This document shows positions 6,392 to 29,434 of a stretch of 30,221 nt of DNA, piece by piece. This stretch comes from a virus. Below the pieces are notes generated by a model. The model saw only the letters and a list, made by a program, of their open reading frames with translations. It was not told the DNA's origin and did no database searches. Both the position numbers and the translations under genes were made by a program. Numbering within the stretch: the stretch's first letter is position 1; every line of letters begins with the position of its first letter. The stretch spans positions 1-30,221 of the IMG/VR virus record IMGVR_UViG_3300028410_000044; one strand, written 5' to 3'.

Positions 6392-9300
6392 TAGTAACTA
6401 AAACCTCCTGTGCTGTTAAGAGTACCAACTGACGGAGAACTTTGTAATCCTTTGTTTGTTGATATATCTGATGTTGTAACGACATTGCCGTTAGCATTCA
6501 AACGTGATGCTGTTATTTCGTCTATTAGTAGAACGTCATTTACTGTTGCGCCGCTAATAAAAATTTCGTCTGGTTCAGAACGTATTTCAAACAAGCTACC
6601 GAATGCCTGTTCTAGTTGGTTCGGAACAATTATAAATGTAACTAAGTCTGGTGCCATTCTATTCATAACATAAGTTGCTAATTCTTGGAAGAAGAATGTG
6701 TCACCGAAGTCCCAGTTTTCTATAGCAAAGTACTGATTAACAAGTCCAATGATACGTGTTTTGATGTCGTTGTCATTTAACACTTGGTCAGGGTTCTTTA
6801 CTGCTTTAAATGTTGCTTGCAAATCTTCGTTCGCCTTTGAGCCAAATAATACTTTGTACTTAACCGGATGATAAATCACTTCGTCACTGATTGACTTAAT
6901 CTGATTAAGTTTTGCGCCGAACGATCTAAACAACTGATCCGAGCTCGGTGGCAGTGGTCTTGTTTCTAACTGACCGTCTAAGAATAGCCTATACTGTCTA
7001 TCGTAGCCTCGTGTTAGCAGGTATGTGTCCATTACGTTACTTGCACTCGGATCTATTCTATTGTTCGGGTCTGCTGTATGCACATACTGAAACTTCAAAT
7101 TATCACGGCCAGTAAATGCTTTATAATCGCCTGTTATAGAAAAAGTTAATGTATTAGCGTTGAATCTTTTAAACAAATCTACATCGTAAAAATAAAACAC
7201 TGCGCCGTCATCAAGTTCACTTAGAACAAGGTCGTCACTCTGTGTCATACGAAGTTCGACACCAGCTTCTTCAGCATTAACATACCTAAAGTCTTCAGTT
7301 CCTGCTGACGTTACATACTTTTCTTGTACTATAGTCTTACTTAGTATAGTTGTATTTCCCGTATTTGGGTCGATATACTCAGGATTAACAATCTCCTCAA
7401 ACAATGCAGGATCATCTGATACTCCATCGTCGTCACTGTCAAAGAAAGTAAGTTCAACTCGAGTACTGTCTACATAACTTTCTTTATCTCTGTACTCAGA
7501 TAATATTTCCCAGGTATAGTCATTAGTAAACGGAGCTAGGCTGTCTGGCGCATTGTTAATATTCAAGACTGTGATCTTGTCTTTGATAATCTTTCCTGTA
7601 CGACTATCAAATATCTTGTCTGACGAGTCGTAAAAGAATCGTATCTCTTCGTCACTTTCGAATACATATCGAAGTCCACGATAAAAGACCTTGTATCTTT
7701 CACCCGAGGTTTCAAACTTAATCAGCCAGCTCGCATCTAGACCCTGGCCGCTGGTATCGCCAGCAAAGCCTGTATTAAAGTCAGCATTAGCATTTAGGTT
7801 CGAAGCTCTAATTATTTTCCAACGCTGGTCGTCGACATCGAACCTCAGTCCGAAGTTGTTAAACGCAAATGCTTGATCAATAACTTGTCTTTTTACATCG
7901 TCAAGTAGCGAACCTGCCAACTTAGGACGTATCTCAGTCAATATTGCACCTGTTGGTATATCATCACTGAGTGCAATACCGCCCGATGTCGAAGTAATAA
8001 GTTGGTCTACACCGTTACCTGCAACATTAAAAACTTTTGTCCAAAGTTCAGTCTTGTGTCCAACTTCGTTTGGCGTTCCTACTTGTAATGCGTTATCTTT
8101 ATCGAAGTACCTTCCTGAAGGAGCAACAAACTTTAATAAGCTGGCTGACTTCACATATCGAAGGTTCGATGTAGTAAAGGTTCCAACTCTAGCATATCCG
8201 TCAGACGGAGTTGTTTGGTTGTCACTAATAAATCCTGTGAATGTGTTATTATCTTTAGATATCGAAACCCAAAATACATTTAAGTCTTCTGCACTGATCT
8301 CAGGATACTGATCAAAGTAAAAATGATTTACTCTTTTGTCTTTAAAGATTGGTTCGATCTCGTTAATAATAACGCCTTCTATATCAGTTTGTGTCTGAAA
8401 CGAAAAAGAAGTAGACCTGTCAATAAATTCCTTATAAACAATACCATCATTACCATAAAGGTTAGTACTACTGTACTTGCCAGTTGCATCAACTAAGTCA
8501 AAGTAACGAGAAATACCACTCGATGTACGGTTAACTGATTTAACTTTTACAATTTCTTGGCTAACTGCTAGAGGAGCAACGTTGTAGTCCTCACCTGTAA
8601 TCATTCTGTTCTGAGTGTAGTAAGTTGCAGGAGCATTAGCTTTAATACTAGCGTTAGTCTCGCTTACTGTTGAGTTTGATACCGTGGTCTGTAGACTAAC
8701 AGTAAATGTAATTTCTTCTTGTTTACCTTGCTTACTTAGGTACGGTATACTAAAGTTGATACCTGAGAGAGCAGAAGGAGTAATAATCATACTTCTGTTT
8801 TCACTTACCCTGTAATATGTTCTGAAGTTACCTTTTGGCAACTCGCCAAATACACCATCAGAAAAGATCAAGTTAATTCTATCATCAACACGAGTTAGTA
8901 CGCTGTACACATTTCTGATGTTATTGTTGATACTGTTATAGATAATATTGTTACCTTCAACTGAATCAACCTTTGTCCATAGTTCTTGTTCGTTACCGTT
9001 TGCATCTAACTTGTAGAGCCAAACGTCTGTATCGTTAATGTTAGTTGTGTCAACAGCAACAGTTTGATTAGCTACAGGCTGAGTTACTGAAAACTGTCCG
9101 TTATCAAGTGTACCTTGACGGAAGTGTGCAAAGAAACCTGTGTTAGTACTGCTCGGTCCACGCCCGTCATTCTTATAAATGAAAGCAAAGTTGTTACCGG
9201 CTAGTGGTGGCTCTTCAAGCAAGTTGCCATCTTCGATATCTGTTGATACAATCTGGAACGGTGTGTTTTTACCTTCAACTGCTTTTTGGAAACTGAAGAC

Positions 9301-25541: not shown

Positions 25542-28500
25542 ATGAGCTGGAAAAAACATTTTACACCGGTTCCGACTGGGAACAACAGCACAGGCAGTTT
25601 CTCGCCGCTCGGTGGACAAAGTGGCTCAATGCCAGGACCAGCCACAAGAAATTATACTTCACATCTTCCAGATGTGTACACAGGGTCCCCGAACCGTATC
25701 GAAAGATATAACCAGTACAATACTATGGATCAAGACAGCGAAGTAAATGCTGCTCTTGATATTCTTGCAGAGTTTTGTACACAGAAAGACAGTCAAAACG
25801 GCACTAGCTTTATTATCAACTTTAAACAAAACGCTAGCACAACCGAAACCACTGTTCTTCAAAAGTATCTACAGCAATGGTATAAGCTAAACAAACTTGA
25901 CACAAGAATGTTTCGTATTATTCGAAACACGTTTAAGTACGGTGATCAAATCTTTGTACGTGATCCAGAAACTAAAAAGCTATTCCATGTTGACCCAAGT
26001 AACCTAACAAAAATTATTGTTAACGAAAGTGAAGGTAAAACACCTGAACAGTATATCGTTAAAGACTTCAATCTAAACTTTGGTGAGTTGGTAGCAACTG
26101 CTCCTTACCCACAAGAAGGTCACGTAGGCGATCACGCTACTTCTTATAATAAGGGCGGAAGCTCGCAGGGCTACCTGTCTGGACAGAAAACAGCAGGCGG
26201 CATAGCAGGTACTAGATTCTCGTTAGACCAAACAGAAATTGCTGTTTCTGCTGAAAACGTAGTTCACTTGTCAATGAGCGAAGGACTAGATGTCAACTAT
26301 CCATTTGGTAACAGCCTGTTAGAAACTATATTCAAAGTCTACAAGCAGAAAGAGTTGCTTGAGGATGCGATTATTATCTATCGTGTGCAACGTGCACCAG
26401 AGCGTCGTGTATTTTACGTTGATGTTGGTAATATGCCAAGCCACCTTGCGATGCAATTTGTTGAGCGAGTAAAAACTGAAATACACCAAAGACGCATTCC
26501 AAGTCAGACAGGGGGCGGACAAAACGTAATTGACTCGAGCTACAATCCTCTCTGTTTGGATTTATCTACAAGGATTCCTCTACTTGACGGAAGAACATTA
26601 GCATTAACTGAGTTAATTGCAGAATTTGAGAAAGGAAAAGAAAACTGGGCATACAGTTGTGATCCTGTGACTGGCAAAATAGCGCCAGGCGTAATTAACT
26701 GGGCTGGTATTACTCGCAGAAATACACAAACTATTCAATTAACATTTGATAATGGCGAAACTTTAGTTTGTACCCCAGACCACAAGATACCAGTATTTGG
26801 AAAAGGTATGGTAGAGGCCAAGGACATCGTCGAAACTGATAGTTTAATATCTTTTAATAAAAGAAACAAAAAGATATCGTCTAAATCTAATGACTATGAG
26901 CAAGTTTGGGATCATAGCAAGAAGGAATGGATGTGGACTCATCGAGTTGTAGGCGAGTTTTTTAGAAACTTGAGCAAACATCAGGAATTTACATACCTTG
27001 AACAAAATGTAGGAAAGTCTAAAGCAGTAATACATCACCAAGATTATAATCGCTTTAATAACGATCCACGTAATCTTCAATACATGAATAAAGCTGATCA
27101 CATACAGTACCATGCTGCAAATAAATCAGATTACTGGTCTAATCTATCAGAAGAAGAATTTCAGTTAGTTACAGGAAAGATTTCTAATACGTTAAAAACA
27201 CATTGGAAGAATATGACTATTGTAGAAAGACAATCAGCTCTTTACAATATTAGGTCAGCACAACAGAGATCAGTGTGGATGAGACAGAACGATACTGCGA
27301 CTATGATCAGTTATAAAGAGAACGCTGGCAAATCTAGAAGAGACTACCTTAATAGTAATCCAGCTGCGATGCAACAAGTGGTAAAAAACTTGGAATCTAG
27401 AGTTAAAATAAAAAATCAATCGTTGCGTTTGACATTTGAAATGTTACAGATAGTAGTGGACATAGTTAAAACTCAGTCAACAAACAAGAACACTGTAATT
27501 AATCTTTGTGACAATAACAAACAGTTACTGGATCTATTAAAGAAAGAAAATTCAGTTGCTCTTGATTATAAGAACGCTCAGTGTAAGATTGACTTTACGC
27601 GATTTGGTTATAGCAAACTAAATCGACTTCTTAAGAAAAACGGATACACTAACTGGAAACAGTTTGTAAAAGAGATCGATCAGTTTAACCACAAAGTAGT
27701 AAAAATAGAAGTAGTGTCTAATCGAGATACAGGAACTATTACCATAGACGGTACTGAAAAATGGCACAACTATCACACGTTTGCTATCGAAAGTGGTATC
27801 TTTGTTAAAAATTCGATCAACGAAGACTACTTCTTCCCGCAAACAGCAGAAGGTCGTGGGTCTAAAGTTGAAACACTACCAGGCGGTACTAACCTTGGCG
27901 AAATTGACGACCTTCGTTACTTTACTAACAAGATGGTTAGAGCATTGCGCATTCCTAGCTCATACCTGCCAACAGGTGCTGAAGATTCAAGCAGCCAATA
28001 CAATGATGGCCGAGTAGGCACTGCCTACATACAAGAACTCCGCTTTAACACCTACTGTGAGCGTCTACAAGGGCTGCTGATAGAAGGTTTTGACCAAGAG
28101 TTCAAGCGTTACTTGCTGGAAAAAGGTGTAAACATTGATACGTCGATGTTTGATCTAAAGTTCCAACCACCACAGAACTTTGCTGCTTATCGTCAAAGTG
28201 AAATTGACAATGCTCGTATTCCTACGTTTACGCAGATGTCAGCTATTCCGTTTATATCAAATCGCTTTGCACTCAAGCGTTTCCTAGGCCTAACCGAAGA
28301 AGAAGTTGCAGAAAACGAGCGCCTGTGGAGAGAAGAGAACGAAGACGAGCTAGACACTGGTGCAGGCGATGCTGCTGACGAGCTACAAGGTGGCGGCGTT
28401 ACAGGCGGTGGCCTGGAAGGCGACCTTGATGGTCTTGAGGACGAAGTTGATGACACTGGTGGCGATTTCGGCGGTGACGGTGAACCTCCGCTATCAACTA

Positions 28501-28565
28501 CAGACGAAGCACCAGGCGGCGGCGAAGCCGGCGGTGGTGACGGAGATATCGGCGGCTCGATATAA
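25542..28565 (+). CDS. 20: Portal vertex protein gp20 with an in-frame intein
   Basis: The 1007-residue frame is the T4-type portal, the dodecameric vertex through which DNA is packaged, interrupted by a 420-residue intein at 338-757. The N-extein has portal-like segments YNTMDQDSEVNAALDIL, FRIIRNTFKYGDQIFVRDPE and RVQRAPERRVFYVDVGNMP. The C-extein begins SINEDYFFPQTAEGRGSKVE and has TLPGGTNLGEIDDLRYF and ALRIPSSYLP. After splicing the product would be 587 aa, near T4 gp20 (524 aa). The last about 70 residues form a Gly/Asp/Glu-rich, probably disordered tail. The gene begins one base after the tape measure stop. Splicing is needed because the intein sits inside the most conserved part of the portal. 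Confidence 0.95.
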   Translation: MSWKKHFTPVPTGNNSTGSFSPLGGQSGSMPGPATRNYTSHLPDVYTGSPNRIERYNQYNTMDQDSEVNAALDILAEFCTQKDSQNGTSFIINFKQNASTTETTVLQKYLQQWYKLNKLDTRMFRIIRNTFKYGDQIFVRDPETKKLFHVDPSNLTKIIVNESEGKTPEQYIVKDFNLNFGELVATAPYPQEGHVGDHATSYNKGGSSQGYLSGQKTAGGIAGTRFSLDQTEIAVSAENVVHLSMSEGLDVNYPFGNSLLETIFKVYKQKELLEDAIIIYRVQRAPERRVFYVDVGNMPSHLAMQFVERVKTEIHQRRIPSQTGGGQNVIDSSYNPLCLDLSTRIPLLDGRTLALTELIAEFEKGKENWAYSCDPVTGKIAPGVINWAGITRRNTQTIQLTFDNGETLVCTPDHKIPVFGKGMVEAKDIVETDSLISFNKRNKKISSKSNDYEQVWDHSKKEWMWTHRVVGEFFRNLSKHQEFTYLEQNVGKSKAVIHHQDYNRFNNDPRNLQYMNKADHIQYHAANKSDYWSNLSEEEFQLVTGKISNTLKTHWKNMTIVERQSALYNIRSAQQRSVWMRQNDTATMISYKENAGKSRRDYLNSNPAAMQQVVKNLESRVKIKNQSLRLTFEMLQIVVDIVKTQSTNKNTVINLCDNNKQLLDLLKKENSVALDYKNAQCKIDFTRFGYSKLNRLLKKNGYTNWKQFVKEIDQFNHKVVKIEVVSNRDTGTITIDGTEKWHNYHTFAIESGIFVKNSINEDYFFPQTAEGRGSKVETLPGGTNLGEIDDLRYFTNKMVRALRIPSSYLPTGAEDSSSQYNDGRVGTAYIQELRFNTYCERLQGLLIEGFDQEFKRYLLEKGVNIDTSMFDLKFQPPQNFAAYRQSEIDNARIPTFTQMSAIPFISNRFALKRFLGLTEEEVAENERLWREENEDELDTGAGDAADELQGGGVTGGGLEGDLDGLEDEVDDTGGDFGGDGEPPLSTTDEAPGGGEAGGGDGDIGGSI
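26553..27812 (+). mobile_element. Intein with HNH homing endonuclease inside the portal gene
   Basis: Residues 338-757 of the frame form an intein. Block A starts at Cys338 (CLDLSTRIPLLDGR). Block B has CTPDH with His414 at its expected place. The C-terminal block is HNYHTFAIESGIFVKN, ending in Asn757 before Ser758 as the +1 residue. The usual penultimate His is replaced by Lys756. Between the splicing blocks lies an HNH endonuclease motif at 498-524 (VIHHQDYNRFNNDPRNLQYM, then HIQYH), followed by basic helical DNA-binding-like segments to about residue 720. The insertion point is Asn-Pro-Leu | Ser-Ile-Asn-Glu-Asp-Tyr, a conserved portal motif, as is usual for inteins. The intein DNA looks more AT-rich than the flanking portal sequence, suggesting separate origin. 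The frame is intact, so homing may still be active. Confidence 0.93.
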
Positions 28566-28819: not shown

Positions 28820-29434
28820 ATGGAAGAAGTTGCGTTTGTTTTAGGTAACGGTACAAGTAGAGCCCCAGTAGACATACAAAAATTAAGAAAAAACGGACCT
28901 GTTTACGCTTGTAATGCAGTATACAGAACAGACGTTGTAGATCATTTAATAGCAGTTGATGCTAAAATGGTCGCTGAAATAGCTCAATCGGGCTACCAGC
29001 ATAAACATCCAACCTGGACTAACTTCAGAAAAAGTAATAGAAACTATAATGGCTTTAGATTTATAGAACCTCGTCTAGGATGGAGTTCAGGTCCCTCAGC
29101 AATGTTCCTAGCAAGCAGTCACCAAAAGAAACACATATACATCTTAGGGTTTGACTATAAAGGAACTAATAACGGCAAGAATATTAATAACATTTTCGCC
29201 GATACCCAAAACTATAAACAGTCAGAAGCAAAGGCTACGTACTATGGTAACTGGTTAAAACAGACTTGTCAAGTAATAAAAGACAACCCAGGAATACAAT
29301 ACACACGAGTTATCCAGCCTGATAATTACTGCCCGCCGGAGCTAAATAACTTTGAGAACTTTAATACTATCCACGTAGATGAGTTCTGTAATATCCTACC
29401 GCACGAGTGCATATCTCAAAACGAGCCGTTTTGA
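28820..29434 (+). CDS. Rossmann-like protein of unknown function (possibly DUF115/glycosyltransferase-like)
   Basis: The 204-aa protein opens with a beta strand and glycine loop (EEVAFVLGNGTSRAPVDI), then PVYACNAVYRTDVVDHLIAVD and, in the middle, WSSGPSAMFLASSHQKKHIY followed by ILGFDYKGTNNGKNINNIF. The pattern GNGxS at the N-terminus, a conserved ACNA and a later ILGFD strand suggests a Rossmann-type nucleotide-binding fold. I associate it loosely with DUF115/MptE-like and sialyltransferase-like proteins. From memory, related hypothetical proteins occur in marine myoviruses. No substrate can be named. It lies between the portal-linked small protein and the prohead core gene and should be expressed late. 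Start is ATG at 28820, three bases after the previous stop, with AGAGG about 12 bases upstream. Confidence 0.7.
   Translation: MEEVAFVLGNGTSRAPVDIQKLRKNGPVYACNAVYRTDVVDHLIAVDAKMVAEIAQSGYQHKHPTWTNFRKSNRNYNGFRFIEPRLGWSSGPSAMFLASSHQKKHIYILGFDYKGTNNGKNINNIFADTQNYKQSEAKATYYGNWLKQTCQVIKDNPGIQYTRVIQPDNYCPPELNNFENFNTIHVDEFCNILPHECISQNEPF

Follow-up and report, generated by a model that had tools for sequence, protein, structure and literature searches.

Introduction

Class 1 inteins are reported in mycobacteriophages, some of them in the portal gene (PORT, cluster C1) (Kelley et al. 2016, PMC5050341). In some of these inteins the penultimate His is changed to Gly, Lys or Ser, and a Gly variant was shown to splice (PMC5050341). 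About 5% of functional inteins are stated to have no penultimate His (PMC4031507), and a role of the block F His at position F:13 in Asn cyclisation is proposed for other inteins (PMC5050341, PMC4031507).

Several adjacent intein sites are described in the haloarchaeal MCM gene, and there the +1 residue has to become Ser by co-conversion (Turgeman-Grott et al. 2023, PMC10643990). In T4, short exon co-conversion is given as a known sign of endonuclease homing (PMC2988022). T4-like and related phages are reported with inteins in the large terminase (PMC3868846, PMC5259590). Portal inteins and a penultimate Lys are already published, while a limited search of open-access main texts yielded no description of T4-type gp20 inteins, of the present lineage or of its site clustering.

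Here, we analyse an insert in the gp20 portal gene of a viral DNA stretch of 30,221 nucleotides, called the window below. Comparison with related loci makes it very probable that the insert is a mobile intein of class 1 with an HNH part, residing in a T4-like portal gene, and from its sequence we infer both splicing and DNA cleavage.

Results

The reading frame at 25542-28565 (+ strand) encodes a T4-type portal protein gp20 as a precursor of 1007 aa with the insert in frame. Portal_T4 (E 3e-100) matches both flanks of the insert, and phrog_213 matches with E 7e-105. The N-extein (residues 1-337, 25542-26552, +) ends in SSYNPL and the C-extein (27813-28565, +, stop included) starts at the +1 residue Ser758 with SINEDYFFP. 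Between them lies the intein of 420 aa (Cys338-Asn757, 26553-27812, +), and its removal would leave a portal of 587 aa. The preliminary description of an intact in-frame 420-residue intein in the portal gene was exact in its coordinates. Ser758 is aligned with a Ser of T4 gp20 (3ja7), so the insertion site is in a conserved portal stretch.

The insert matches TIGR01445, for the intein N-terminal region, above its cut-off (E 1e-6) and Pfam Intein_splicing slightly under the cut-off of 35.8 (32.9 bits, E 7e-8). Block labels and the class scheme follow PMC4031507 and PMC5050341, with the positions in the window intein assigned by alignment. Its class 1 features are the N-terminal nucleophile Cys338 (Cys in 73/73 relatives, being part of the search pattern), the block B T-x-x-H as TPDH at residues 411-414 (26772-26783, +; TPxH in 73/73 distinct inteins) and the C-terminal Asn757 before Ser758.

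Blocks F and G (27723-27812, +) hold F:4 Thr732, His742, F:13 His745, Lys756 and Asn757. A penultimate His (G:6), which is usual in class 1 though not required, is absent here, and the earlier reading that Lys756 stands in its place is confirmed. A class 3 intein, which lacks the N-terminal nucleophile and has Cys at F:4 with a WCT motif, is ruled out by Cys1 and the F:4 Thr.

The HNH motif region HHQDYNRFNNDPRNLQYMNKADHIQYH is located where it had been described, at residues 498-524 (27033-27113, +). Here the insert matches the PHROG HNH family phrog_7545 (residues 492-534, E 8e-8) and HNH_3 (residues 493-520, E 0.004, under the Pfam curated cut-off). Among the 14 aligned intein members, 13 match HNH_3, with a best E of 0.00016, so the motif of an HNH homing endonuclease is present.

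The AlphaFold model of the full-length window intein is poor, with a pLDDT of 63.6 overall and about 30 at the C-terminus. A natural mini-intein of 147 aa at the same site (L131), modelled with 21 relatives aligned, reaches 91.5. The best PDB matches of this model are inteins, NrdJ-1 (8ubs) with a TM score of 0.88 and NpuDnaE (4kl5) with about 0.8, and the mini form is accordingly predicted to take the HINT fold.

Next to the portal gene, an ORF at 28820-29434 has weak sialyltransferase-like matches (phrog_4603; CST-I under the cut-off). Similar ORFs are seen by eye near the portal gene also in L118 and L119.

Scanning with the intein added 32 filled loci, and in all 32 the intein shares one ORF with portal sequence, so the arrangement is not due to chance. 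A scan with the C-extein gave an empty site in 78 of the best 80 portal loci, with one filled (L040) and one cut there (L100). The empty alleles read NPL-S(I/T/M)NEDYFFP uninterrupted, with the hyphen at the insertion site. The same site is therefore found with and without the insert, as the preliminary description had proposed to check, and its refuting case of a fixed portal domain in all relatives is excluded by the empty alleles.

The closest empty allele, L034, is from about the same phage as the window (flanks 98.8% and 97.5% identical), and its extein is 99.8% identical to the window's. Occupancy differs between L034 and L002, a copy of the window's phage, and likewise between filled L008 and empty L089, and the compared extein proteins are identical within each pair.

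It is highly unlikely that the insert is a splicing-dead remnant or a fixed domain that is retained in the mature portal. The joint absence of the penultimate His and the F:4 Asp would suit such a remnant. It is opposed by the empty alleles with identical extein proteins in L034 and L089, by purifying selection on the intein (dN 0.04, dS 0.48 between the window and L009) and by one essential gene holding two or three inserts. It is also opposed by Cys1, the block B His, the F:13 His, the Asn and the +1 Ser/Thr in 73/73 inteins, of which Cys1, the Asn and the +1 residue belong to the search pattern.

Mobility is indicated by divergence. The window intein differs from those of L003-L008 by a dS of 0.11 and from that of L027 by 0.02 over 237 codons, against exteins that are near or past saturation on both sides in these comparisons (pS about 0.7-0.8). 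On a tree of 106 portals, explaining the occupancy of the window's site (site a) by itself takes 7 changes, each of them required by starred branches, and 8 when the double-intein L131 is counted too. The tree omits duplicate loci (L001, L115-L117), L134-L136, L029 with its three inteins and a number of edge fragments; cut inteins may be present in L128 and L129, and the labels of such rows are partial.

Extremely unlikely is a splicing intein that was inherited vertically, with strong selection on the intein instead of movement behind the pattern. The intein diverges about as much as the extein among the distant L011-L026 (64-67% identity), where old stretches of vertical inheritance are therefore likely. 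For the close group the idea is already contradicted, as selection on a protein does not lower dS, the near-identical sibling L034 is empty and the extein tree needs at least 7 changes. We reject both the fixed domain and vertical inheritance on the empty alleles, the dS contrast and the extein tree. A recent horizontal acquisition of the site-a intein, with almost identical copies in unrelated phages, is well supported by these sequence comparisons.

A bacterial origin was considered and set aside, a scan of genome contigs giving only 5 distant loci. One of them, L215, has an intein in a gyrB-like gene, as judged by eye.

The sibling pairs further carry marks beside the insertion. L002 and L034 differ at 12 of the 28 bp that precede it (26525-26552, +) and at 1 of the other 983 bp of the N-extein, a clustering with P 2e-19 by hypergeometric count. 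The window itself has one additional N-extein mismatch to L034, at a distance of 364, and the first downstream one is at +221. All 12 differences in the putative co-conversion tract are synonymous, the encoded residues being equal in the window and L034.

L008 and L089 differ at 7 positions in the 22 bp before the insertion and at 2 in the 11 bp after it; beyond these come 92 and about 550 clean bases, respectively. This pair has a separate second block of 13 mismatches, 115-169 bp upstream of the insertion, in portal genes that are otherwise near-identical, so homing need not explain every tract in it. We take the short synonymous tracts at the L002/L034 junction as a probable co-conversion footprint, and that of L008/L089 as a less clean one.

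The flanks of the intein-bearing lineages in general were unconvincing as proof of co-conversion. Their similarity is 0.89 in the last 24 bp, and stretches of this length elsewhere in conserved coding sequence reach up to 0.88. Junction similarity is reached by 87 of 100,000 random sixes of the 68 empty alleles, with relatedness not controlled. Since similarity is barely higher at the junction, co-conversion is supported by the two sibling pairs only.

The L002/L034 event may be a gain by homing or the replacement of a filled allele. Recombination with another empty phage could instead have removed the intein from L034 or given it a cleavage-resistant coding; this is unlikely but deserves real weight, because the next empty relatives L035-L037 are closer to the window tract than L034 is. 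Against it, the window's 45-bp flank is best matched among the non-identical loci by intein-bearing L027 (40/45), whose intein is also the closest to the window's. Taken with the empty alleles, the low intein dS and the occupancy changes, the footprints uphold the earlier proposal of a mobile element of the portal gene.

Complete gp20 inteins were counted by site patterns, which would miss inteins at other sites. The count gave 73 distinct inteins in 70 distinct portal ORFs, with one copy per identical ORF and both intein ends inside the contig. It leaves out the N-truncated site-a copy of L029, contig-edge fragments, the duplicate loci L001 and L115-L117, L134-L136 and L215-L219.

F:4 and G:6 covary in all 73: Asp and His occur together in 9 and neither in 64. 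The 64 have Thr or Cys at F:4, and at G:6 they have Lys (56), Tyr (2), Phe (2), Gln (2), Arg (1) or Leu (1). Site b holds every one of the 9, along with two inteins of the other type (L200, L202). On the intein tree the 64 form one clade (94/77), and either trait needs two changes when the outgroup LR756508.1 (Lys, Asn) is included. The covariation thus amounts to one or two events, not 73, and reflects linkage in descent rather than repeated coupling.

The F:13 His is present in 73/73, in 72 by pattern, and the exception, the site-b intein of L200, has HNF by eye. An additional His three residues before F:13 is in 57 of the 64 inteins of the His-less type and in 0/9 of the other. The absence of the penultimate His appears to be an old trait of the gp20 intein lineage, coupled to the loss of the block F Asp. 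We infer that Asn cyclisation rests on the F:13 His, leaving the exact G:6 side chain free to drift, and with this His in every intein the earlier suggestion of cyclisation by other residues seems reasonable.

The gp20 insertion sites d, a, b, c and c' are closely clustered. Site b is QT-SEGRGS, site c is LPGG-SNLGEI, site d is SGGG-SN (L207), and c' (L186) is a one-residue variant of c. The 73 inteins are distributed as 47 at a, 13 at c, 11 at b, and 1 each at c' and d, and at least 2 are carried by 9 of the 70 portal ORFs.

In L207 (1160-5155; also L208), a single portal ORF of 1332 codons contains an intein at each of d, a and c; these three end in TYN, VKN and TFN, none with a penultimate His. 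In L029 (3-2480), a stretch of about 25 extein residues takes in the inteins at a, b and c, whose endonuclease parts are all reduced. The site-a copy of L029, cut by the contig edge, keeps the HNH motif but has lost most of the remainder, and the b and c copies of L029 occur once more elsewhere (contig 3300012031_000015; L114). Reduced copies at site a include also L030-L032, without residues 163-262, and the 147-aa L131.

At site b, the +1 residue is Ser in 15/15 filled alleles and Ala in 98/98 empty ones of the first set. The contrast has exceptions, since loci such as L180-L183 and L193 carry this Ser although their site b is empty. A split portal intein was suggested by site-b matches that stop at residue 112-115, but the ORFs are continuous (374-392 aa) and this was rejected.

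In L129, the site-c intein runs into a stop. This may be an error of sequencing, or the essential gene may hold a broken copy. L130 has a GIY-YIG homing endonuclease-like ORF (6942-7790, by eye) among head genes.

Discussion

In the proposed mechanism, Cys338 would attack the Leu337 bond after translation, and the N-extein would be transferred to Ser758. Asn757 would then cyclise with the aid of the F:13 His745, perhaps of His742 too, instead of a penultimate His, and the outcome would be the 587-residue portal. In a co-infecting phage, the HNH domain would cut a portal allele that has no intein; repair templated by the donor would then bring in the intein along with some tens of adjacent bases. 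Later decay of the endonuclease would give mini-inteins.

A wider reading is attractive, but we hold it only tentatively and lean slightly against it in full. The gp20 of T4-like phages would be home to an old intein lineage of its own, in which the block F Asp and the penultimate His disappeared together and splicing runs via a different network, of the F:13 His and, in 57/64, the extra His. This lineage would have diversified by moving among sites that lie a few residues from each other, stacking two or three inteins in single genes.

One essential phage gene here displays a natural series of the homing cycle, with empty, full, endonuclease-reduced and stacked alleles, and the sibling pairs mark both the insertion site and the transferred tract. 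In this large and diverse set F:4 and G:6 change together, so Asn cyclisation without the penultimate His is testable by a two-residue swap. Where gp20 serves as a marker gene in phage surveys, inserts should be expected.

Among the known inteins, NrdJ-1 (8ubs) is the best PDB sequence match (E 3e-9) and also a top fold match. Its PDB entry describes a 150-residue fusion of a split intein that has no endonuclease part, whereas the window intein has an HNH.

A portal intein of the huge phage LR756508.1 shares Hint and a related HNH with the window intein at 37% identity, but this phage has three inteins at other gp20 sites. In its unannotated 484-kb genome, the Portal_T4 ORF (L135, 1027-5187) has three Intein_splicing matches, one ending in LKN. 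The intein of Bacillus phage SP-15 similarly has Hint and a related HNH at 31% identity, but its gene differs. It is the HNH intein of SP15_022 (L136, 2626-4290), annotated as hypothetical, and by eye its extein resembles the start of a terminase ATPase.

The window intein resembles the mycobacteriophage ones, as described in PMC5050341, in its class 1 type, its portal gene and its penultimate Lys. The 45-70 kb region of Mycobacterium phage ET08 had no gp20-like or otherwise related intein, and the C1 portal intein was not located there.

Like haloarchaeal MCM as reported in PMC10643990, gp20 has adjacent sites and a similar constraint on the +1 residue. The two differ in that MCM is an archaeal helicase gene with mostly double inteins (PMC10643990), whereas gp20 encodes a structural protein of phages and carries as many as three inteins per ORF, several of them reduced in the endonuclease.
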